From Paracyclopina nana (lineage: Eukaryota > Arthropoda > Copepoda > Cyclopoida > Cyclopettidae), in NCBI GenBank assembly GCA_019096065.1, contig JAGUCH010000002.1, positions 6,956,501 through 7,020,500 of the forward strand: a stretch of DNA of 64,000 nucleotides, in the 5' to 3' direction. Position numbers and translations under genes: made by a program. How positions within the stretch are numbered: the first letter of the stretch is position 1; each line of letters opens with the position of its first letter. This document shows positions 18,189 through 62,815 of the stretch, piece after piece. Below the pieces are notes generated by a model, which saw only the letters and a list, made by a program, of their open reading frames with translations, was not told where the DNA came from and searched no databases.

Positions 18189-18528
18189 AATAGAGCTCTG
18201 AATTCGTCATTCTTCTTCACCTGACTTAACAGTCAATTTTCACTTTTCCAGTTCAAAAGAACTAATTCCGTTTCTATTTCCAGGTCCAACAGGACCAGTG
18301 AACCCCACCCAGACGTTCCTGCGGCCAAACAGACCCAAAAGGACGTCGACCTCTTTCACCTATTCTATTCCGGAGCGACTCAGAAGCCAATCCGGACTCA
18401 AATTCTTCTTACACCCAGTTAACACTGTCGCTGTTTAAGAACAATAAAGGACCAAATTGCTTGCATAAACTGCTTACTTATCAATAAAAGGTTTAGTTCT
18501 TGAATAGCAAACTCCCTTAATTACTAAC

Positions 18529-21045
18529 ATGGCTAGCGCAATGAACACGAGTTCACCCAATCAGTCTGACGAGGAAAGTCCTCAGAGACATTGGAAGCTT
18601 GTCTACAAGGAACTTGAGACCGAAATGCAAACTATTCAGGCTCAATATGATGCTTGGTACCAAGTCATGCCTGATGTCATGAAAAAGGACATCAAACCGT
18701 ATATGAGACAGCTCAAAAAACTTAGGCCAATAATCGCACACCTCGATAAGGAAGTCGAAGCATTTGAGGATGACACTGACTTCATTGATGGTGAGGATGG
18801 CGAGGCCAGAGACGAAGCTCTCATTGTCTTACGTGAAAAAATGGAAATGATCCTCATAAGGAAGCGAGGCTGGTTTGCGCGATTCCGCAGATACTTGGCT
18901 GAATTCGAGAAGGAAAATCCTGACGCATCGAAAATTTCAGCCAATGAGTCCTCGTATGTCATTCCTTTCCCAGAGGACTTGAATATATCAAAAATCTCGA
19001 AAGCGAGCGTGAATACACGCAATAACTTACTCGAAAAGCGAGAAATCCTACGCTCTGACGAGCGAGGCGATAGAGACATTGAAACCTCCAAACAAAGCGA
19101 GCCTGACTGGGACATTCCAGAAAATAAAGTTGCTAGAGATCTCTACTTGTCAGTGAGGTCATTAATTGACAACCTGAAAGTCATGATCGCGACTTTTGAA
19201 AAGGATCCAAATCCGGACTTGAACCCGTCACGCCAAAAAATGATTGACGAAGCGGATGCTTCGATAGCAATCAAAGCCCAAGCTGCCAAAGAAGCTTTCA
19301 GAAAAGCCAAAAACCTGGACAGCAGGCAAATTGGCAGCTATATAGGCCATGTGACAAGAGCTCGCAGTGAAGCTCAGGCCGTAATAAAGGCTTATAAGCC
19401 TCCAATTCCAGTCACAGATGACACCCCGGACCGCTCACAAATGAAGTCCTTTGAACGTGAAGCTTTCAAAGAGCTGAACGAAAGTATCGCAGCTCAAAAT
19501 GCCAAAAAAGAAGCTGAGTTAAAGACTCAAAAAGAGGAACAAGTACCGAAAATTAACTTGATTCCCCCGCCAATGTCCGAAATAAAGGCACCTCCCCCAC
19601 CTCCAAACTTGATGCTAGACAGCACTCACATCCCGAGGATAGACGAAAATGCCTTGAATCCGGATGAAAATGAAAATGAAAATGAAAACAATGGCAATGC
19701 GAACGAAGTCCGAGAGGACAATAACTCGCAAAGAAGCCACTATGACAATTCCAGAGGCAGAGGCCGTGGAAGAGGACGAGGAAGAAGTTCTAGACATAGA
19801 AACAGATCCCCCTCTCAATCATCATACCATTCCGAAGAAGTTGAAGAGGAATATGTGCAAGTTCGAACAGAAAAGCACTTCAACTCTAACAAGTTAGAGA
19901 CTGAAACGGTCTCGAGCTGGTCAGACCTCTACAAAAGGGCTTTCAAATTGAGCCAAATATTCAATGAAAAGAAGGAAAAATTACCTAAGGAGTCTGACAT
20001 CCCCAAACTAAAGTTCAAAGGAGACATGGGCGAATATCCAGACTTCAAGGAAAGGTTCTTCTTGAAAGTCATCAAAAATGTGACTATTTCCCCATCAAAT
20101 AAACTGATGATCCTAACGGACTGCCTGGAAGGCGAGGCTTTGACTGAAGTCAAGGACTGCAAGCCTTGGAATCTGAAAAATCTAGCGATAGCTCTTGAAA
20201 GACTTGACGCTTTATTCGCTGATCAAAAAGGCAGAAAGGGCTTTCTACAAACAAAGCTATCAAACCTGTCCCCCTTTGACCACTCGAAACGGGAGCTTCT
20301 ACTTGAGTACAAGGATGTCATCTTTGACCTCAGGAAGCATTACAGGGAAGAAAGCTTAAAAAAGCATTGCAATCCGGAGATGGCAATCGAATCCATCTTC
20401 TTTGCGATACACTGGAAAGAAAGTTCAAAATCCATGTATGAGACTTACATCGAGTCCAAAGGTCTTGAAAAAGGCTTGGAATCGATCCTCCAGTTCATGG
20501 AATGGCACCTGAGCCTCAACAGGCTAAATGCCTACGAAAAGTCTCTGAAAACAGAAAAAGAAAAAGTGACTTCCAAAAAGGCAGCTAAAGCTGACCCGGT
20601 CTTATTGACCAATGATGCCAGTGACTCGTCCTGCTCCGATTATTCCACGGATTTCGAAGAAGAAGAGGAGACTTGTCTGGCCACAGCAACTCGGGATGAA
20701 TCCCTCAATGACTGTCCAATCTGCAATAAAAACAGTCACAAATTATATCAATGCAGAACCTTTTTCAGAATGTCTGCCAAAGACAAGTATGCAAAGTGCA
20801 TCGAAAAAGGTGTATGCATGCGCTGCCTGGACTCAAAACACAGGCGTGTCTCTTGCAAGGCCAAAAAGTGCAAATGCGGCAACCCGCATCACAGTATTAT
20901 GCACCGCGCCTTCGACAAAAAGAAAGATGCAAAGTCTACTCAAGACTTAAACAAAAAACTTGAGAAAATCGAGTCAACGCTCAATACTGTGCTGGAAAAG
21001 GCTAGTTTTTTAGAAGCAAGCCCCCAGTCAGAGACTCAAACGTAG
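18529..21045 (+). CDS. gag: BEL/Pao Gag polyprotein
   Basis: The 838-residue ORF starts at the ATG after an 800-bp leader. The first third is charged and helical. A proline-rich stretch (P-P-P-M-S ... P-P-P-P-P-N) is followed by an acidic E-N-E-N-E-N run and an arginine-glycine patch (R-G-R-G-R-G-R-G-R), probably RNA-binding. A capsid-like region follows (P-K-L-K-F-K-G-D-M-G-E-Y-P-D-F), typical of Pao Gag. The C-terminus has Cys/His knuckles of BEL/Pao type (C-P-I-C-x-K-x-S-H ... C-x-R-C-L-x-S-K-H ... C-K-C-G-x-P-H-H). It ends at a TAG 5 bp before the pol ATG, in a different frame from pol. It appears intact. Confidence 0.92.
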   Translation: MASAMNTSSPNQSDEESPQRHWKLVYKELETEMQTIQAQYDAWYQVMPDVMKKDIKPYMRQLKKLRPIIAHLDKEVEAFEDDTDFIDGEDGEARDEALIVLREKMEMILIRKRGWFARFRRYLAEFEKENPDASKISANESSYVIPFPEDLNISKISKASVNTRNNLLEKREILRSDERGDRDIETSKQSEPDWDIPENKVARDLYLSVRSLIDNLKVMIATFEKDPNPDLNPSRQKMIDEADASIAIKAQAAKEAFRKAKNLDSRQIGSYIGHVTRARSEAQAVIKAYKPPIPVTDDTPDRSQMKSFEREAFKELNESIAAQNAKKEAELKTQKEEQVPKINLIPPPMSEIKAPPPPPNLMLDSTHIPRIDENALNPDENENENENNGNANEVREDNNSQRSHYDNSRGRGRGRGRGRSSRHRNRSPSQSSYHSEEVEEEYVQVRTEKHFNSNKLETETVSSWSDLYKRAFKLSQIFNEKKEKLPKESDIPKLKFKGDMGEYPDFKERFFLKVIKNVTISPSNKLMILTDCLEGEALTEVKDCKPWNLKNLAIALERLDALFADQKGRKGFLQTKLSNLSPFDHSKRELLLEYKDVIFDLRKHYREESLKKHCNPEMAIESIFFAIHWKESSKSMYETYIESKGLEKGLESILQFMEWHLSLNRLNAYEKSLKTEKEKVTSKKAAKADPVLLTNDASDSSCSDYSTDFEEEEETCLATATRDESLNDCPICNKNSHKLYQCRTFFRMSAKDKYAKCIEKGVCMRCLDSKHRRVSCKAKKCKCGNPHHSIMHRAFDKKKDAKSTQDLNKKLEKIESTLNTVLEKASFLEASPQSETQT
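21006..21012 (+). promoter_or_regulatory. -1 ribosomal frameshift heptamer TTTTTTA
   Basis: In the gag frame the codons read AGT TTT TTA GAA, so T-TTT-TTA sits in the correct register for -1 slippage, the same heptamer as used by lentiviruses. The -1 frame is the pol frame. It has a TAG at 21003-21005 directly upstream and is open from 21006 through pol. The site is 31 bp before the gag stop. A stimulatory downstream structure was not resolved. Confidence 0.75.
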
Positions 21046-24000
21046 TCAAAATGCCAAAGGAAGTAGCTATGCAAATGATCGAAATAAAAAGACAGCTAGA
21101 ACTTCCAAAAAAGTCAACGCAAAAATGCTTTAGAGTAGTCCCAGTCATAGTAACTAATGGCGACAAGCAAGTCACCACAAATATGGTACTAGACGAGGCC
21201 TCTAGCAATACTTTCATAAGCACAAGTCTATTTAAAGCACTAAATATAAAAGGCCAAAAGGTTCAATATGACGTGTCAACTATAAATGACAAAGTGCAAA
21301 GCATGAAAAGTTATAAGTGCAAAATTAACATAAAGCCAACGCTCGCAACTAAGCAAAACTTTGACATCAGCGCATATACGTCTGATGGCATCAATAAGCT
21401 CATAAAGTTGCCCAATTATGACAAGCTAAAGCGCAAGTTTTCATTCATGAAAGACATAGACTTTCCAAAGCTTCACAATGGCCCAGTTGAAATACTGCTA
21501 GGGATTAACTATCCGGCCTTACATACTAGCTTCAAGGACTTGTCTTCACCAAATCCGGACTCACCTCTCGTAAGGGAGACAGTTTTTGGCTTCACAGCCA
21601 CGTATTCCAATCCGGAATCATCGTCAAAAGACGGGACCACGCTACTGACTAGTCAAATCATAGAAAATGAATGCCCAGAACTAAAACAGATCATGTGCGC
21701 ATTATTTGATGATGACAGTCAGGGACTTCAACTAATTGACAGCTCTGAATTCCTCACTGCAGACGAAATTCGAGCTAAGAAAATAATACAAGACTCGATC
21801 CACACTAATGCCAAAGGCAATAAAGAGATGGATGTGCCGTGGTACTCATACCCAGATCCACCACCTCTTCCAAATAACTACTATCAAGTATATACCTTTG
21901 AAAAGAAGCATGAAGACAAGCTAATCGGCTTCTACATACCTCGAGTAATGGTGGTCAAACTTGACAGATTGACTATGAAAGTCAGAGTCTGCATGGATGC
22001 AGCCAGACCTTTTGGAAAAGACAAAGTCTCACTCAACTCACAAGTCATGACTGGCCAAAAGCTACAAGGCGATATTTGGTCAATATGGCTACGTTTCAGA
22101 ATGGGCCTAAAAGGTTATATAGCAGACGCTGAAAAAATGTTTCTAAACGTGCACTTAAGTGAAAAGGACAAGAAATTCCATAGACTAATTCATAGAGGAC
22201 AAGCTTATCAGTTTGAGTCCTGGGTCTTTGGAAATGCAGCCTCTCCTTACGCTGCTTTATATACTATGAAAGAAATCTCAAAAGAGGGCAAATTGCATCC
22301 TCTAACTGAGTATGTATTCAATGAATGCCTTTACATGGACGATATTTTGTTCAGCTGCGATGACACTAAAGATGCTCTCGCAGTTTATCATGATGTCAAA
22401 AACGTCCACGCCAAATCGAAAATGGTCTTCAAAAAGTGGGTCAGTAATGACAAAGACTTCATGGCCAAGCTTGAAAAAGAGGATTGGCATCCCACTTTTG
22501 ACTTGCAGTCCAAAACGCCCGATGTTAAAGCTCTGGGCATAAAGTGGATCTCAAGCAATGACACAATCCAATTCCAAGCTTTGAAGACAAAGCTTACAGA
22601 AAAAGACCAAAGTCTAATAACGAGACGCTACATAGCTTCAATAGTAGCTCAAATTTTCGATCCGCATGACTTGCTGGCCCCCTTCACACTTCGAGGTAGA
22701 CTAATCACCCAAGAAGTATGGGGCTTAAATGACACGCTAAAGCTGAATTGGGACGATAAACTGATCGATTACGAGTCTCAAGACGATCGCATCAGGCCAA
22801 TACTTGATGCATTTATGCAATTCACGAACGAAGCGACTAGAATTGATGAAATCATTCTTCCACGCTACGTTTCGATTCCGGATCATCAAATAATCCGGCG
22901 TGAACTTCACGCTTTCTGCGATGCTTCTAAAAAAGCTTACTGCGTAGCAGTTTACCTTCGCATAATCTATACAGACGAATACGGGGAACAAAAAGCTGAA
23001 GCCAATTTGATAACCGCTAAAAAGAAGCTTATCTCTTTTACTGGCCGATCAATTCCAAAAGCTGAATTGATGGGAGCAGTCTGCGCTGCTCAAATAGTGC
23101 CCAATGTTTTGAAAAACTTAAAACTAGTCAACTGCTCTATTAGCGACGAAAACGTCTTCTATTATTTGGATTCACAGTGCACTTTACAATGGATCAAATA
23201 CTGCTCAAGAAGACTTGAACAATTTATAGCAACGAGACTTTCGCTAATCAGACAAACAACGAGCAAAAGCCAATGGAACTATGTCAAAACTGACAAGAAT
23301 CCAGCAGACAAAGGCACTCGTAGCTTGTCATTAGACGAATTCATAAAAGACAAAACTCACTGGTTCAAAGGTTATAACCTAGATTCTCTTGATTATCAAA
23401 TCGATGACGAGAACTTATATGACATGCCAGATGAAGAAAAAGATGAGCTTAGAAGCTCTGTGGCCAGAATTTGCCTATTCAGCCACTTAAAACTCCGGAA
23501 TTATCATCCATCGATGTCATTTGACAAAATCCGGAATCTGTTTAAACTGGAAACGAAATGGGCTAAAAAACAGCCTGAAGATCTAACCTCTTTTATGAAT
23601 AAAAGACCCATATTGTATACAAATGAATTTGTAAAACGTCATTTTAATGACCTCGACAGTCTGCTCAAAATCACGAGTAACTTACTATGTATTAGAAAAG
23701 TACTGTCTGAAAAAGCTCTGGCAAATCCGGATGCCCCAGCTAATACTCAGAAACTCCGAGACGGCTTAAAGCTAAAGCAAAAGCAATACGAAAACAGAGT
23801 TTTTTACAAAAAGAAACTGGCACTTTCTTTCCTTATTCGCGAAGCGCAAAAAGAAGCGTTTCTGAGTATCAATTCTAATCTAAAGAAAGAATTGACTAGC
23901 TTTAAAGCAAAACTGGACGATGATGGCATCATAAGAGGAGACTCTAGAATTGATGACTTCAGCGCTATTTCAGTTTATCAAAAAAGACCGATTCTACTCG

Positions 24001-25154
24001 ATAAATCGAGCTACTTGACTTATCTAATAGCGAAAAACATACATGACACTAATCATGCATCGCTAAAAGAATCATTAGCTGAATTTTACAAATTCTTCCA
24101 TTGCTCGGGCTTACGAGTCATGTTGAAGAATATAATCAAAAAATGCTACGAATGCAAGCTCACAAAAGGTAAACCTTATCAAAGCCAAATAATGGCGAAG
24201 CTTCCGGACTCGAAATTTGACAAACTCCGGCTCTTTGAATCGATCGCAATTGACTTTGCAGGTCCTTTAAAGGTCATATTTGGCAGAGGTACGAAAAAGT
24301 ATTATCTACTGATCTTTGTCTGCTTACAGACTCATGCTTTTCACATGGAATTGTGCGAGAGTATGGCAACAGAACACGTATTAACAGCGTTCCAAAGGTT
24401 TGCAAGCAAACGTAGAATTCCAAAACTGGTCAGATCTGATAACGCTGCGCAATTCACAGCCACTAAAAACTTGGTCTTACCTGACATAGAAAGTCTTCAA
24501 TCCAAGTTAAACATTGAACAATGGGAATTCTCCCCGGTTTACAGCCCACAAAACAATGGGTTAGCTGAACGAATGGTTGGATTAGCAAAAGCCAGACTGC
24601 CATGTCTTCAATCCACAGAATTCACCCTGGACAGTCTTCTAACAAGCATTGACATGATCACTGACTTGATTAACAGTAGACCTGTAGAATACATAAATAC
24701 GAGTAAAATTGAAGGCATTTTATGCATTAATGACATACTTAAATGCGGCCTGAACTATGACGATAGTCTGCTCCATGTAAAAGCAGAAAACAAGTTTTCA
24801 GAGCTCTATCTGACAATTAGAGCACATATTGACGATTTTTGGTCTCAATGGATGAAAGCTGTCATTGATGAACTGAAAAAATATCCTAAATGGACTAAAT
24901 TTCGGGATGACCCGAAGGTGGGCGAAATTTGCATCTTAATGCCGACGTCCACTAGCAAAAAAGACTGGAAAAATCCAAGGTATGAGTGGAAATGGGGACG
25001 AATCCATTCGCTAATCAAAGACTCAGACGATGTCATTAGAAAATGCGAAGTCCTCATCGCCTCGGATCAAACCAAAACTGAAAAATATAAAATAAAACCT
25101 GCAAAGAGAGAAATATATTCAATTAGACAATTGATTCCACTTAATATTCTCTGA
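21006..25154 (+). CDS. pol: BEL/Pao Pol (protease, RT, RNase H, integrase)
   Basis: Pol is open in the -1 frame from 21006; the first ATG is at 21051. Domains in order: an aspartic protease with L-D-E-A-S-S (a variant of D-x-G-S); reverse transcriptase with V-R-V-C-M-D-A-A, D-A-E-K-M-F and Y-M-D-D; RNase H with F-C-D-A-S, E-L-M-G-A, Y-L-D-S-Q and N-P-A-D-K-G-T-R; an integrase HHCC zinc region (H-D-T-N-H ... C-Y-E-C) and a DDE core with A-I-D-F-A-G-P, R-S-D-N-A-A-Q-F and N-G-L-A-E-R. All catalytic acidic residues can be seen. About 1367 residues from the ATG. Expression is probably by frameshift as Gag-Pol. The Ala in place of Gly in the protease motif is unusual. Confidence 0.93.
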   Translation, partial: FFRSKPPVRDSNVVKMPKEVAMQMIEIKRQLELPKKSTQKCFRVVPVIVTNGDKQVTTNMVLDEASSNTFISTSLFKALNIKGQKVQYDVSTINDKVQSMKSYKCKINIKPTLATKQNFDISAYTSDGINKLIKLPNYDKLKRKFSFMKDIDFPKLHNGPVEILLGINYPALHTSFKDLSSPNPDSPLVRETVFGFTATYSNPESSSKDGTTLLTSQIIENECPELKQIMCALFDDDSQGLQLIDSSEFLTADEIRAKKIIQDSIHTNAKGNKEMDVPWYSYPDPPPLPNNYYQVYTFEKKHEDKLIGFYIPRVMVVKLDRLTMKVRVCMDAARPFGKDKVSLNSQVMTGQKLQGDIWSIWLRFRMGLKGYIADAEKMFLNVHLSEKDKKFHRLIHRGQAYQFESWVFGNAASPYAALYTMKEISKEGKLHPLTEYVFNECLYMDDILFSCDDTKDALAVYHDVKNVHAKSKMVFKKWVSNDKDFMAKLEKEDWHPTFDLQSKTPDVKALGIKWISSNDTIQFQALKTKLTEKDQSLITRRYIASIVAQIFDPHDLLAPFTLRGRLITQEVWGLNDTLKLNWDDKLIDYESQDDRIRPILDAFMQFTNEATRIDEIILPRYVSIPDHQIIRRELHAFCDASKKAYCVAVYLRIIYTDEYGEQKAEANLITAKKKLISFTGRSIPKAELMGAVCAAQIVPNVLKNLKLVNCSISDENVFYYLDSQCTLQWIKYCSRRLEQFIATRLSLIRQTTSKSQWNYVKTDKNPADKGTRSLSLDEFIKDKTHWFKGYNLDSLDYQIDDENLYDMPDEEKDELRSSVARICLFSHLKLRNYHPSMSFDKIRNLFKLETKWAKKQPEDLTSFMNKRPILYTNEFVKRHFNDLDSLLKITSNLLCIRKVLSEKALANPDAPANTQKLRDGLKLKQKQYENRVFYKKKLALSFLIREAQKEAFLSINSNLKKELTSFKAKLDDDGIIRGDSRIDDFSAISVYQKRPILLDKSSYLTYLIAKNIHDTNHASLKESLAEFYKFFHCSGLRVMLKNIIKKCYECKLTKGKPYQSQIMAKLPDSKFDKLRLFESIAIDFAGPLKVIFGRGTKKYYLLIFVCLQTHAFHMELCESMATEHVLTAFQRFASKRRIPKLVRSDNAAQFTATKNLVLPDIESLQSKLNIEQWEFSPVYSPQNNGLAERMVGLAKARLPCLQSTEFTLDSLLTSIDMITDLINSRPVEYINTSKIEGILCINDILKCGLNYDDSLLHVKAENKFSELYLTIRAHIDDFWSQWMKAVIDELKKYPKWTKFRDDPKVGEICILMPTSTSKKDWKNPRYEWKWGRIHSLIKDSDDVIRKCEVLIASDQTKTEKYKIKPAKREIYSIRQLIPLNIL

Positions 25155-52315: not shown

Positions 52316-52483
52316 GCAGCAGTGGATGTGGAAAAAAAGAGGCTCTGCCAGGAGCTTCTGAATGAAAGTTCTTTAGCATGTTGGCAGGATACAGAAATAT
52401 AATGCATTAAGCAAGCATCGACATCACCCGATTTCCATTCAGCTCGAGGCGTTTTTCGGCCCCAAAGAAACCTGCGAAAATGT

Positions 52484-53146
52484 TTATTTTCTAAGCGCCT
52501 CGGCTACAAAATCAACAATCGTGTCCGGCTCGGCCATTGCACCCAGGCCTTTATCATTGCACATGAGAACCTTCTCCACGCAAGGTACCTCTTTGTAGCC
52601 CCAAGACTGCAATATTTCGATCTGAGGCTTTGTCACAGGATGGCTCCACATGAAGGTGTTCATAGCGGGAGCAATCAGGCAAGGCTTATTGAAATCCCAA
52701 GCACGACACACGCATGTTAAGAGGTTGTCAGCTAGGCCATTAGCAATTTTGCCTAGAGTATTAGCGTCTAAGGGAGCGATGATCAGTAGATCAGCCCACT
52801 TTCGCAGTTCAATGTGCAACACTGGATCGCCTCGGCATTGCCAAGAGTCCCACTCGTCTTTATCCACGTGAAACTTCACTTTCAAGTCTTGCAGACTCTC
52901 GGCGGGCAGAAAATGCTGAGCATTTTTCGTCGGTATCAACACTATATCACAATCAGGAATTTTGCTTCGAAGTCCTTCAACTATTGTTGAGGCTTTAATA
53001 GCGGCTACACTTCCAGTTACTCCGAATAAAATGTTACTGAAAGTAGCAGCGTAAAAATGCACGATGAAAACTCGACAAAAATGAGCAAAGTTAAAAGTTT
53101 TGAAATAAACCGCAACGCTAGTCGATAGATTGAAAATTTACCTCAT
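52484..53146 (-). CDS. PPCDC: Phosphopantothenoylcysteine decarboxylase
   Basis: PPCDC is the flavoenzyme of coenzyme A synthesis that makes 4'-phosphopantetheine. Motifs: [23 protein letters not shown] with the catalytic His, [10 protein letters not shown], and P-A-M-N-T-F-M-W. The large exon 52484-53036 has no ATG at its 5' end but a clean acceptor (TACTTTCAG). The only convincing start is ATGAG at 53142-53146, inside the COX19 coding region, joined through a 105-nt intron (GTAAAT). This yields [11 protein letters not shown] and 185 residues, an exact multiple of three. The same splice makes COX19 end at GAG-TAA. The catalytic Cys is plausible at P-C-V-E-K-V-L-M-C. Confidence 0.85.
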
Positions 53147-53402
53147 ATTTCTCTTCTTTGGCAATGTCAGAATATCCCAACTTTTGCCAACTTTCCTTGG
53201 CCATCAGTCCTTTCTGCATTCTACAGTCCAAATAGTCTTTTCCCTCAGCTCTGCATTCAGAGGCACTGTTGTTATTGTCGATGAGGCACACCATATATTT
53301 CGCATAAAAGCTTTTGCACTCGCCCTCACGGTCCAGTGGAAAACTGCCCTTATCAGGAGGAGTGGGATTAAACTTTTTGGCGCCGAAAACGTTGGAAGCC
53401 AT
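53118..53402 (-). CDS. COX19: Cytochrome c oxidase assembly protein COX19
   Basis: COX19 is a twin CX9C protein of the mitochondrial intermembrane space needed for complex IV assembly and copper handling. Visible features: [15 protein letters not shown], then [11 protein letters not shown] and [11 protein letters not shown] with CX9C spacing, and [10 protein letters not shown]. Unspliced, it has 94 residues. If the donor at 53141 (GAG|GTAAAT) is used, it ends at ...E-K-Y-E after 86 residues, at a stop shared with the PPCDC start. An acceptor-like site lies 7 bp before the ATG, and CCDC174 ends 20 bp upstream. Confidence 0.93.
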
Positions 53403-53408
53403 AAGTAC

Positions 53409-53422
53409 CCTGCAAAAACAAT
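53409..53422 (-). promoter_or_regulatory. Splice acceptor between CCDC174 and COX19
   Basis: On the minus strand the CCDC174 TAA is followed by ATTGTTTTTGCAG, a strong 3' splice site, and the COX19 ATG comes 7 bp later. With so little space for a promoter this fits spliced-leader trans-splicing or splicing from a donor within CCDC174. Confidence 0.55.
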
Positions 53423-55267
53423 TTACTCGTCATCACTCTCCGACTCTGAAGTAGCCATGCCCGGCATGTTATTTTTCAGTCCACTTAAAAATGCTTCAGC
53501 CATTTGCTCATGGCTTCTAAAGCCTTTAGGCCTTTCTCGTGGCCTTTTATCACTGCTGTAGTAGTCCATGCTTGCGGGAGGAGCGATTTCAGCTCTGGTT
53601 CTCATTGTAGCGCTTTCATCGAACCGTTCCTCAAGGGGCTCAGGGTGCACAAATTGTTGATGAAGTCTAAGCCTCTGCTCTTTGCTGACAACCTCATTCA
53701 CAATGGGCTTAGAAATCTGCCCAGAGTCGTGTACAGGGCTGCACGGTCTGTGTGCATCGGGCTTTGTCATGCATCCTATCTCAACTTCAACTTCTTGGTT
53801 TCCTTGAGGAGGAACGTAGCCCGGTGGGAGTGGTTCGTCTGGGTCGAATTCTTCTTGGCCTTTGTGGCCTTCAAATGATCTTGGCGGTGGTGGCACACAC
53901 GGGTTAAATGCCTTTGGCAAAGTCGGACTTTCGCAAGCAAAAGCTTGGAGAGGAGGAACATGAGTAGAATGATTTCTGCTTGCTTTCGTTGTCGCACTCT
54001 TCGCATATAAAGACGGCGGCGGGACATTGCCGTAATTTTTAGTTAAGCTTGTCTTTGGCTTTTTTGCATATGCCGATGGAGGCGCAAATTCGTTGGGCCT
54101 TTCTTTCCGCTTTTGGTCTACCCATTCTTGCTGGCTGAGAACCTTTCGCTCCATATTGATTTTGAGTTTCTCCTTAAACTCCTCCTGGTCAGTCGGCTTC
54201 TGGGCATTAACGCCATCTTTGCCAATGTCCCATTCTCTGACAATTGACTTTCTCATTTTCTCTTCCTCTGCTTTACGCAATGACTTAAGCCCTTCCATCA
54301 CAGAGTCTTCTATTGAGGCCTCTCTTGAGGCTACCTCGGTTTCTTCTGCTAATTTGATTGGCTCGTCGTCCTCGGGAAGAATAGGAAGGCCCATTTTGAG
54401 TCTTTTCTTGTTTCGCACTTTTCTCAGTCTTTCGGCCAAGGCAGCTTCCCTTTTAGCTTTAGCAGTTTCTTTCTTAGCTCTGGCCTCAACTGTCTCTGTA
54501 TGAATTGACTCTAAATTGTCCAATTGGGATCTGCGGTCGGACTCATTGCGAGAAAAGTTATAGAATGAAACACCGTGGGTCCGAGCCTCGTCAAACAATA
54601 CATCTCTGTAATGCAATTGAGTCTTCTTCAAATTCTCCTCCTCTTCTTGCTCCCACTTTTGACGTAGCAGCTCTCTTCTCATATCTTCGCTAAGCATGCT
54701 TAACTCAGCCTCAGTTTTGGAAGTTCCTGCTTCTCCAAACGTCTGTAAATCACGCTGTTTCATAAGGTCCAATTCTGACTTCATGCACATTCTGGTTCTC
54801 CCAAGTGCGTCCACATATTCAACCCATTCTTCGCCTTCATGTTTGGCAGGTGGAATTGGATCCTCCTCCTCCTCGTCCGATTCTTCAGCCCTTCCACGGT
54901 TGAAATTCACAAGAAACACTTCATCCTTGTCGCTATATTTGCCACTCTTTAATTTATCATATACCGCGGCCTTTTCTTCCAAAGCTGCTTGCACACGCAA
55001 CCTTTCTTTTCTTGCTTCTTCTGCAGCTTCAGTTGACCTTTTTAACACGCCGATATTGGATTTGCTCCAAATGTTGTTCTTCTTTCTGGTCTCACTCGCT
55101 GAACTTGCTGTCGACCGTCCATGAACTTTGTTATAGAGAGCTTCTTGTTTTTTGCGAAAAACTTCCGCTTTCAGGTCGACTAACGATGTAGGATCCGACG
55201 ACAAAGTTTGGGAGGCTGTTGCCATATTAAACGTGTCCTTATCAGCCTCAAGATTGCCGTCCTCCAT
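53423..55267 (-). CDS. CCDC174: Coiled-coil domain-containing protein 174
   Basis: CCDC174 is a nuclear protein tied to splicing/EJC function in other animals. Landmarks: [12 protein letters not shown] near the N-terminus, [50 protein letters not shown] and R-E-W-D-I-G-K-D. The C-terminus adds a Pro-rich stretch and an acidic end (S-E-S-E-S-D-D-E). It is a single exon, 614 residues from the ATG at 55267; a longer frame to 55294 begins with GTG and is not needed. It heads a tight same-strand trio with COX19 and PPCDC. Confidence 0.88.
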
Positions 55268-55956
55268 TTTGACGAAGACGAACGTTCTTGACACCCCTCA
55301 GTGCTGATGGAAACAGAAAATTGTTATTATTCTCCAAATAAATAAAACAGATCGGAAAACCTCCAACATTGAATAAGTTTGTTTTTATATACATAAAATT
55401 TTCGTCTGCATGACGGAGCAAATGTGAGACACTTCATAACAAAAAAATTATGATTTTTTAGATCTTGGCGAATCAACCGTTTATTTTCGTGTTTTTTTAA
55501 GAAATATTCGAAAAAATTAAGCCTCAGAATTCTTGTATAAATCGTCTAGTTAAAGCCCCGAATCGCCATCATTTTAGCCCCTGAACCTTTTTTTCGAAAA
55601 AAATAAAATATTTGAGCGAATACAACCAATTATTCTTTACACACTAAAATCGAGCGAATTTCCAATTGTACTTGAAAATAACTTCATGGCTTGCCACTCT
55701 TGTCTACCAAATAAATGTTACAAAAGTGCCTATATAACATATATATGACGAAATAGCGTTCATGGGCTCAAGCAGACAAGCTCTGATGTAATCGAAATTT
55801 CCATCTTTTTCGGCAAGCGTCTTTCCACACATTGAAAACACGTGGGGAAGCTTACCACGGGGTTTTTGAGAAGAACTACTTTTGTTCCACCAGTCCAGAG
55901 GTAACTGAAGAGATAGCAAAGATTTTGGCACTGCTGTCACGCTTCAAAAGCAGAAG
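55268..55956. other. AT-rich divergent intergenic region
   Basis: It separates the divergent CCDC174 and PPR-like genes. It is AT-rich with no repeat or motif noted beyond runs of A and T. Confidence 0.4.
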
Positions 55957-59985: not shown

Positions 59986-61960
59986 TCCCCTGACTCAGCA
60001 GTCTATAAAGTAAACATGCCAGCTCCGGTGCTGAGCCCTGAGCAGCCTGAGGTAAAAAATCAGGTCATATCCTGAAACTACATGAAAAACTGAGCCACTT
60101 TGTGCTTCAGAGCCAACTCAGTATTCTGGCACTAGGCAGGTGAAAAAACCATCACAAACTCTGACCAGGCTCAAATTGTAACGCCAATATCTCAGCGTTG
60201 AGTTGACCGATTTGAAAACAATTTACTGTTTTGGAAATGGCATGAGACTAGCTAACTTTCATTACTTCATAGTCATTTTGCTAGCTCAGTGATAAGTTTC
60301 CCCTGTCTCAGCAGTCTATAAAGTAAACATGCTAGCTCTGGTGCTGAGCCCTGAGCAGCCTGGGGTGAAAAATCAGGTCATATCCTGAAACTACATGAAA
60401 AACTGAGCCACTTTGTGCTTCAGAGCCAACTCAGTATTCTGGCACTAGGCAGGTGAAAAAACCATCACAAACTCTGACCAGGCTCAAATTGTAACGCCAA
60501 TATTTCAGCGCTGAGTTGTCCGATTTGAAAACAATTTATTGTTTTGGAAATGGCATGAGATTAGCTAACTTTCATTACTTCATAGTCATTTTGCTAGCTC
60601 AGTGATAAGTTTCCCCAGTCTCAGCAGCCTATTAAGTAAACATGCCAGCTCCGGTGCTGAGCTCTGAGCAGCCTGGGGTGAAAAATCAGGTCATATCATG
60701 AAACTACATGAAAAACTGAGCCACTTTGTGCTTCAGAGCCAACTCAGTATTCTGACTCAAGGCAGGAGAAAAAACCATTACAAACTCTGACCAGGCTCAA
60801 ATTGTAACGCCAATATCTCAGCGCTGAGTTGACCGATTTGAAAACAATTTACTGTTTTGGAATTGAGGTGAGATTAGCTAACTTTCATTACTTCATAGCC
60901 ATTTTGCTAGCTCAGTGATAAGTTTCCCCCGACTCAGCAGTCTTTTAAGTAAACATGCTAGCTCCGGCGCTGAGCCCTGAGCAGTCTGAGGTAAAAAATC
61001 TGGTCATATCCTGAAACTGCATGAAAAACTGAGCCACTTTGTGCTTCATAACCAATTCAGTATTCTGACTCTAGGCAGGAGAAAAAACCTGCACAAACTT
61101 TGACTGGGCTCAAATTCTAACACCAATATCTCAGCGCTGAGTTTTCTGATTTGAAAACCATTTACTGTTTTGGAATTGAGGTGAGATTAGCTAACTTTCA
61201 TTACTTCATAGCCATTTTGCTAGCTCAGTGGTAAGTTTCCCCTGTCTCAGCAGTCTATTAAGTAAACATGATAGGTTCAGTGCTGAGCCCTGAGCAGCCA
61301 GAGGTGAAAAATCTGGTCATATCCTGAAACTAGATATAAAACTGACCCACTTTGTGTTTTATAGCCAACTCAATATTCTGACTCTAGACAGGAGAAAGAA
61401 CCAGCGCAAACTTGGACTGAGCTCAAATTGTAACATCAATATCTCAGCGCTGAGTTGTCAGATTTGAAAACAATTTACTGTTTTGGAATGAGGATGAGAT
61501 AACCTAAGTTGAAACTACATGAAAAACTGAGCCACTTTGTGCTTCAGAGCCAACTCAGTATTCTGGCACTAGGCAGGTGAAAAAACCATCGCAAACTCTG
61601 ACCAGGCTCAAATTGTAACGCCAATATCTCAGCGCTGAGTTGACCGATTTGAAAACAATTTACTGTTTTGGAAATGGCATGAGACTAGCTAACTTTCATT
61701 ACTTAATAGCCATTTTGCTAGCTCATTGATAAGTTTCCCCTGTCTCAGCGGTCTATTAAGTAAACATGCTAGCTCCAGTGCTGAGCCCTGAGTAGCCTGA
61801 GGTAAAAAATCTGGTCATATCCTGAAACTACAAATAAAACTGAGCCACTTTGCAATTTTGCTAGCTCAGTTATTTATTTCACTTGTTTCAACAGTCCATT
61901 AAGTAAACATGCTAGCTCCAGTGCTGAGCCCTGAGCAGCCTGAGGTGAAAATTCTGGTCA
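59983..61960 (+). repeat. ~313-bp satellite, about six copies
   Basis: Units start GTTTCCCC(T/A)G(A/T)CTCAGCAG at about 59985, 60298, 60612, 60925, 61237 and 61735. A rearranged or truncated copy lies near 61510-61735 and a partial one near 61860-61960. Each carries 'ctcagtattctg', 'ctcaaattgtaacgccaatat' and 'aacaatttactgttttgga'. Neighbouring copies are more alike on the left than on the right. Confidence 0.88.
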
Positions 61961-61963
61961 CTT

Positions 61964-62815
61964 TTGCCCATTGAGACTTTTGCCCTTGAGACTTTTGCCC
62001 TTGAGACTTTTGCCCATGGACACTTTTGCCCTAAGATACATTTGCCCTTAGGAAGTTTGCCCTTGAGGACTTTTGACCCTCAGACTTTTTCCCTTCAGAC
62101 TTTTGCCCTTGGGGAATTTTGCCCTTGGGGAATTTTGCCTTTGGGGAATTTTGCCCTTGGTGTCTTTTGCCCTTGGGGTCTTTCTCCCTTTGGGACATTT
62201 ACCCTTGGGGACATTTGCCCTTGGGGACTTTTGTCCCTTGGGACTTATGCCCTTGAAGACTTTTGGCTTTGGGGACTTGTGTCCTTGTGGAGATTTGCAT
62301 TTGGGGACAATTGCCCTTGGGGACCTTTGCTCTTTTATGACTTTTTTGAAGTTCTGATAGTTTGCTTTTAACCTTTGATTAGATAAATGAAAGAAAAATC
62401 AGAATTTTGTCTGGTGTACGTGTACAGGGCCCTTTGATCAACAGGACATAGTAAAAGCAACCATAAGAAGAGTTCCTATGGGCATCAGTCCCCTTGGGCA
62501 GTAGTCCCCACAGCCATAAGTCCCCAAAGCCATAAGTCCTAAAGGGCAAATCTCTCAAAGTTTGCGGGGGCAAAAGTTTCCTAGGGCAGAAGTCTAAAGG
62601 GCTAAAGTCCCCAAGGGGAAATGTCCCCAAGGGCAAAAGTCCCCAGGGGCAAAAGTCTCCAAGGGCAAAAGTCCCCAAAGGCAAAAGTCCCTAAGGGCAA
62701 AAGTCCCCATGGGCAAGAGTCTCTAGGGTAGCAGTCCCCATCTGCAAAGGTCTCTAGAGCAAATATCCCGCATGCATAAGTTCCCATGGGCAAAAGTCTC
62801 ATGGCAAATGACTCC
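61964..62815. mobile_element. Foldback-like pair of inverted minisatellite arrays
   Basis: 61964-62335 is an array of 15-17-bp units (ACTTTTGCCCTTGGGG). 62466-62815 is the same unit in reverse complement (CCCCAAGGGCAAAAGT). They face each other across about 130 bp of unique DNA. Arms of short tandem repeats in inverted orientation are characteristic of Foldback (FB) elements. No transposase is seen. Confidence 0.65.

Follow-up and report, generated by a model that had tools for sequence, protein, structure and literature searches.

In the copepod Paracyclopina nana, the mitochondrial protein COX19 and the coenzyme-A enzyme PPCDC are probably expressed from one dicistronic mRNA; PPCDC would be translated by termination–reinitiation, and the splice-made stop–start joint would be a variant of this lineage. 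Both genes lie on the minus strand of the window—the whole 64,000-nt stretch of DNA analysed, to which the gene coordinates below refer. The COX19 coding exon (53142..53402; ATG at 53402-53400), as delimited by its frame and its homologues, comprises 87 codons, features a twin CX9C motif, and ends with TAT GAG. Its last five bases, ATGAG (53142..53146), hold in another frame the start codon of PPCDC and the first two bases of codon 2. The donor GTAAAT follows from 53141 and opens a predicted intron of 105 nt (53037..53141; GTAAAT...TACTTTCAG), behind which the PPCDC main exon (52484..53036; first letters TAACATTTTATTC, TAACAT), placed by frame, Pfam, and homologues, extends to the stop at 52486-52484. 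The TAA at 53034..53036 is the stop of spliced COX19 and, in the other frame, supplies base 3 of PPCDC codon 2 together with bases 1 and 2 of codon 3. In the spliced form, COX19 consists of 87 aa followed by TAA and PPCDC of 185 aa, and the A of the PPCDC ATG precedes the T of the COX19 TAA by 5 nt, leaving two bases between ATG and TAA (AUG-N2-UAA). The initial annotation of this stretch had described ATGAG, the donor, the 105-nt intron, and the TAA behind the junction exactly, and it had rightly stated that unspliced RNA gives a longer COX19 and no PPCDC: the retained intron adds seven codons (VNFQSID, then TAG). Its statement that PPCDC has no ATG in the main exon holds for a usable start, the frame being open from 53137 with no Met before APAMNTF.

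A third gene, CCDC174, ends 20 nt upstream of COX19 and is absent from that annotation. The CCDC174 exon (53423..55303, minus strand; PF13300 at 8.9e-21 and PF25449 at 2.2e-14) is preceded by an acceptor-like TTTCCATCAG before 55303 and carries the coding sequence from 55267 to 53426, followed by the stop TAA at 53425-53423. The 20-nt gap between this stop and the COX19 ATG (53403..53422) contains the acceptor-like ATTGTTTTTGCAG|GGTACTT. Further upstream, a non-coding leader exon of 51 nt (55856..55906) is proposed, with the donor GTG|GTAAGC at 55855 and the initiator-like TCAGTT at 55908-55903. Five initiator-like TCAKTY sites occur in the 3.5 kb from 56000 to 52484, and the one at the leader is the only TCAGTY. 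The strong donor, the TCAGTT, and the acceptor-like site suggest a non-coding leader exon of CCDC174 that is perhaps shared with COX19. At the other end of the cluster, the sole AATAAA on the minus strand between 55303 and 52400 overlaps the PPCDC stop (52483..52488). No AATAAA is present within 250 nt of the CCDC174 end or the COX19 end; for comparison, 14 other ORF ends were picked in the window, some of which may not be true gene ends, and 11 of them have an AATAAA within this distance. PPCDC itself contains an ATTAAA, 37 nt past the stop of spliced COX19, that might function in polyadenylation.

The PPCDC frame matches the Pfam Flavoprotein family PF02441 at 3.1e-33 and has 5089 homologues at E<=0.001. 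Among the best 120 of these 5089, the first named match is from a mosquito, and the copepod Eurytemora appears at 56%. The COX19 frame matches Pfam CHCH below the curated cut-off only (21.1 versus 27.2 bits), carries its twin CX9C at C29/C39 and C50/C60, and has 115 homologues, some of them named COX19; the named matches include no copepod. For CCDC174, the first named match is Tigriopus californicus. The PPCDC and COX19 queries each give one match in the 92-Mb genome, with the best candidates only being scored, and Rfam gives no match in the window at the gathering score. A COX1 search of the assembly was likewise negative. As an observation apart, PPCDC-like proteins of 31-49% identity occur in IMG/VR viral contigs of up to 527 kb (L002-L007, L016-L040). 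The IMG/VR scans with P0001, A1, and A2 yielded 6 loci in one and 25 in another, with one contig common to both; one further IMG/VR scan and a scan of GTDB contigs with A1 found no PPCDC relatives.

Both splice sites of the joint score high. As judged by an approximate donor matrix, the 53141 donor comes second of the 134 GTs found in the 3 kb that precede the PPCDC exon, and the two best donors among the 171 GTs between 56100 and 52400 are the one at 55855, which is best, and then the one at 53141. On a crude ad hoc score, the acceptor before 53036 is one of three, out of 297 AGs, that share the top value. Having an ATG in frame says little by itself because 61 of the 134 GTs allow one; the unusual point is that the best-scoring of these 61 is the 53141 donor (4.14 on the same approximate matrix, with the next at 1.69). 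The initial annotation had taken ATGAG to be the only start of PPCDC that keeps frame and length. The donor score speaks for this start, and those 61 GTs would each permit some open in-frame ATG. Two further routes to PPCDC were considered and rejected: leaky scanning is disfavoured by the five AUGs that intervene between the COX19 start and the PPCDC start, of which three belong to the COX19 frame, and a leader spliced straight to PPCDC would provide no start, the proposed leader holding no ATG.

Conservation of the joint was judged from the proteins of relatives, so that an ATGAG in these species is deduced from amino acids and not from codons. The two nearest COX19 relatives are P0121 (83% identical) and P0122 (78%), the tails of which read ...AEKNEVSSYLHV... 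and ...DNKNEVSKAAAH..., respectively. The motif [N/Y]-E|V-[S/N], which is found in both and in the read-through COX19 of P. nana, fits ATGAG|GTRAGN or GTRAAT, and behind E|V the three tails are unrelated—as expected of an intron. P0122 and the PPCDC protein P0001 have equally long longest contigs (2648 nt), and the P0001 model starts only at MTGSV and is likewise without its N-terminus. On the side of the acceptor, hydrophobic residues with pyrimidine-type codons precede the conserved part in P0010 (...YR|KVLLGVTG) and P0013 (...LR|KVLLGVTG), compatible with a phase-2 acceptor in the same place, and for several relatives the called frame opens with a start of the M(N/K)I(I/L)LG type. Across the 104 readable COX19 tails of the 115 matches, [NDHY]EV occurs in three: P0121 and P0122, which are plausible, and the sponge protein P0210. 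One tail of the 104, that of P0142, ends with ...KNE ([NDHY]E), the ending expected from ATGAGTAA if the form is spliced or intronless. The question raised at the outset, whether related species keep the ATGAG|GT layout, thus has a divided answer: the C-terminal ends of P0121 and P0122 agree with it, whereas only these 2 of the 104 readable tails plausibly do so. The exact joint is kept near this species but is no general feature, an argument against its being deeply constrained. In P0124 and P0004, which share a contig size of 1415 nt, COX19 ends with ...DQNV and PPCDC is called from MTGSV; speculatively, an intron might there split the start codon as AT|G.

Linkage of the two genes in relatives was assessed from contig sizes, using all listed matches that have a contig size and no taxon name (61 for PPCDC, from the best 120 of 5089, and 98 for COX19, of 115), and with 60 shifted offsets from -30 to +30 nt as control. 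COX19 and PPCDC matches fall on equally sized contigs of the same source in 11 pairs from 10 PPCDC matches, against a control mean of 1.38 and maximum of 4; for the 20 best PPCDC matches there are 6 such pairs against a mean of 0.57 and a maximum of 3. Seven of the shared contig sizes are 933-1451 nt—about one mRNA holding both ORFs. The 933-nt size matches two COX19 entries, so at least one pair is due to chance. Equal contig sizes thus occur above chance; order, strand, and RNA origin are outside their reach. With 28 hand-picked matches of CCDC174, two equal-size pairs with PPCDC (16239 and 94484; 11 PPCDC matches) and none with COX19 (21 matches) were obtained. Separately, the gene model P0275 fuses CCDC174 to a PPCDC domain, which is probably an annotation artefact of a tight cluster; its tag, Tk00576, presumably stands for Tigriopus kingsejongensis.

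The mechanism that we infer from the sequence begins with a promoter and a non-coding leader that are maybe common with CCDC174, the leader being spliced to 55303 or past CCDC174 to 53409. Ordinary cis-splicing would remove the intron 53141-53037 and leave one mature mRNA holding both cistrons, with AATAAA at the PPCDC stop as the poly(A) signal used. The same splice would end COX19 at the TAA behind the junction and complete the start of PPCDC (ATG AG|T AAC). Ribosomes would translate COX19 and stop at this TAA, and a fraction of them would reinitiate at the preceding AUG, from which the stop is separated by two bases. Junction-dependent decay would not be triggered if the mRNA has no further intron, since the COX19 stop would then lie past the last junction. 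COX19 and PPCDC are adjacent, conserved ORFs on the same strand, as in the dicistronic pairs of the FlyBase type, and the stop–start overlap of coupled termination–reinitiation is present in the spliced form as AUG-N2-UAA. A UGGGA (TURBS motif 1) is located at -38, just outside the caliciviral range of 40-90 nt, where it encodes a conserved Leu-Gly and may occur by chance. A further step, in which the one splice needed for both the COX19 end and the PPCDC frame would gate the coupling, its efficiency setting the amount of the coenzyme-A enzyme per respiratory-assembly factor, is a doubtful addition to this scheme; it would amount to a translational coupling, gated by splicing, of two metabolism-linked proteins encoded in an animal nuclear gene.

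Alternatively, PPCDC could possess its own capped mRNA, transcribed from a promoter inside COX19 or CCDC174 with the end of the COX19 exon as first exon; the overlap would then reflect genome compaction, and COX19 would use a separate or an intron-retained mRNA. This is unlikely, even though it needs no unusual translation and even though, according to the available part of the FlyBase account, where a 3′ cistron also has an alternative monocistronic mRNA, this is usually driven by a promoter farther downstream (PMC4528330). The COX19 exon contains no TCAKTY, the nearest such site upstream being at 53878; COX19 has no AATAAA of its own, although the ATTAAA inside PPCDC is at hand; and relatives share short contigs for the two genes. 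The initial annotation had left the choice between a splice-joined mRNA for two proteins and a PPCDC promoter nested in COX19. The former gains from the protein ends of relatives, the shared contigs, the stop–start spacing, and the Drosophila pair described below, whereas the latter lacks a TCAKTY in its exon.

The same annotation had pictured splicing as a control, and a regulated switch can be formulated in which intron retention would change the COX19 tail and abolish PPCDC, splicing would yield both proteins, and the ratio would be set by regulation. The seven open codons of intron-retained COX19 agree with it; the read-through tails of three species are wholly different and both splice sites score high, which makes such a switch improbable. 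Still more improbable is an operon in which a CCDC174-COX19-PPCDC pre-mRNA would be cut by spliced-leader (SL) trans-splicing at TTTTTGCAG and CTACTTTCAG. The 20-nt gap with its acceptor-like site before COX19 would suit this, and calanoid copepods are known to use SL trans-splicing (PMC4664967). However, trans-splicing at 53036 leaves PPCDC without ATG unless the SL supplies one in frame: COX19 has its own ATG behind the acceptor, and PPCDC has no Met ahead of APAMNTF. In addition, the genome contains no match, at up to three mismatches, to portions of two leaders, the calanoid SL and an SL-like sequence from a siphonostomatoid, and 5S units contain no SL-like RNA by eye in the parts read of L043 and L047, nor by Rfam in six loci. 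The accessible portion of the copepod study likewise gives no SL matches in cyclopoid and harpacticoid data (PMC4664967).

The dicistronic reading with reinitiation has parallels in known systems. In Drosophila, the gene CG30290 is presumably Ppcdc, and the species label 'Carmae' used in the survey cited next presumably denotes Carcinus maenas. In the available text of this survey, CG30290, a 'putative flavoprotein enzyme', is preceded by a 94-aa twin-CX9C uORF under purifying selection (Ka/Ks 0.00); the association was also seen in an EST of 'Carmae', within Pancrustacea, and the uORF is considered by the authors a possible tandem duplicate of other CX9C uORFs (PMC2276209). In both systems a twin-CX9C ORF of about 90 aa (87 aa here) lies directly upstream of a flavoprotein ORF (PF02441 here). 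The CG30290 uORF may be COX19 or, if a tandem duplicate, another CX9C uORF. A stop–start overlap and an intron at the joint, as in COX19–PPCDC here, are not described for the CG30290 pair in the accessible part of the survey. Searches found no literature that pairs COX19 with PPCDC, and none, in the titles and abstract openings of the matches listed, on a splice that makes a stop and completes a start. A dicistronic mRNA with this pair has probably been published already under a different name; if so, the pairing is likely to be old, and what is new may be the splice-made joint.

FlyBase counts 159 dicistronic pairs; where loci are exclusively polycistronic, the distance from stop to start is between -34 and 319 nt. 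Of the genes carried on polycistronic mRNAs, 26 have an out-of-frame coding overlap, and 130 genes have a common promoter and 5′ non-coding exons, as given in the consulted part of that account (PMC4528330). These loci are alike in encoding two proteins per mRNA, whereas the completion of a stop and a start by one splice is not described there. Excerpts of a review give the formula of coupled stop and start as AUG-Nx-UGA with x = 2, 5, 8, or 14; COX19–PPCDC matches it at x = 2, with UAA as stop instead of UGA (PMC5972666). The same excerpts list a bicistronic splice form of mouse GAD with UGAUG, a caliciviral TURBS at 40-90 nt, and some cellular cases without TURBS; reinitiation after long ORFs is presumably very rare, the CASQ2 product being ~82-fold lower (PMC5972666). 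The AUG-N2-stop spacing here is like that of caliciviruses, CASQ2, and GAD, whereas no TURBS is demonstrated. With the spliced-leader operons of tunicates, chaetognaths, and nematodes, the locus has in common tight head-to-tail genes and the acceptor-like site in the gap; it differs in that no usable ATG follows the PPCDC acceptor and that the genome lacks the searched parts of two published copepod leaders.

If the dicistronic reading holds, this locus would be a natural case of termination–reinitiation after a long ORF in an animal nuclear gene, with a stop–start signal that exists only after splicing—hence, the unspliced RNA would be a built-in negative control. It would provide a likely name, COX19 with PPCDC, for the insect 'uORF' pair, and the pair may have been kept together in Pancrustacea. 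The PPCDC start missing from the called frames of relatives, as well as the CCDC174–PPCDC gene model, would also be explained.

Elsewhere in the window, two long ORFs of 845 and 1382 aa on the plus strand (18508-25151) resemble, by eye, gag and pol of a BEL/Pao-type retroelement, and the stretch 61949-62398 is repetitive; its frames are open on either strand and contain recurrent peptides, for example LETFALETFA. In the scanned genome (G000:C1), 5S rRNA arrays occur at ~912000-940000 (L045-L050) and 1275959-1287395 (L042-L044) with a spacing of ~471 and ~347 nt, respectively. The first array alternates 5S copies of 111 bits with diverged copies of ~98 bits.
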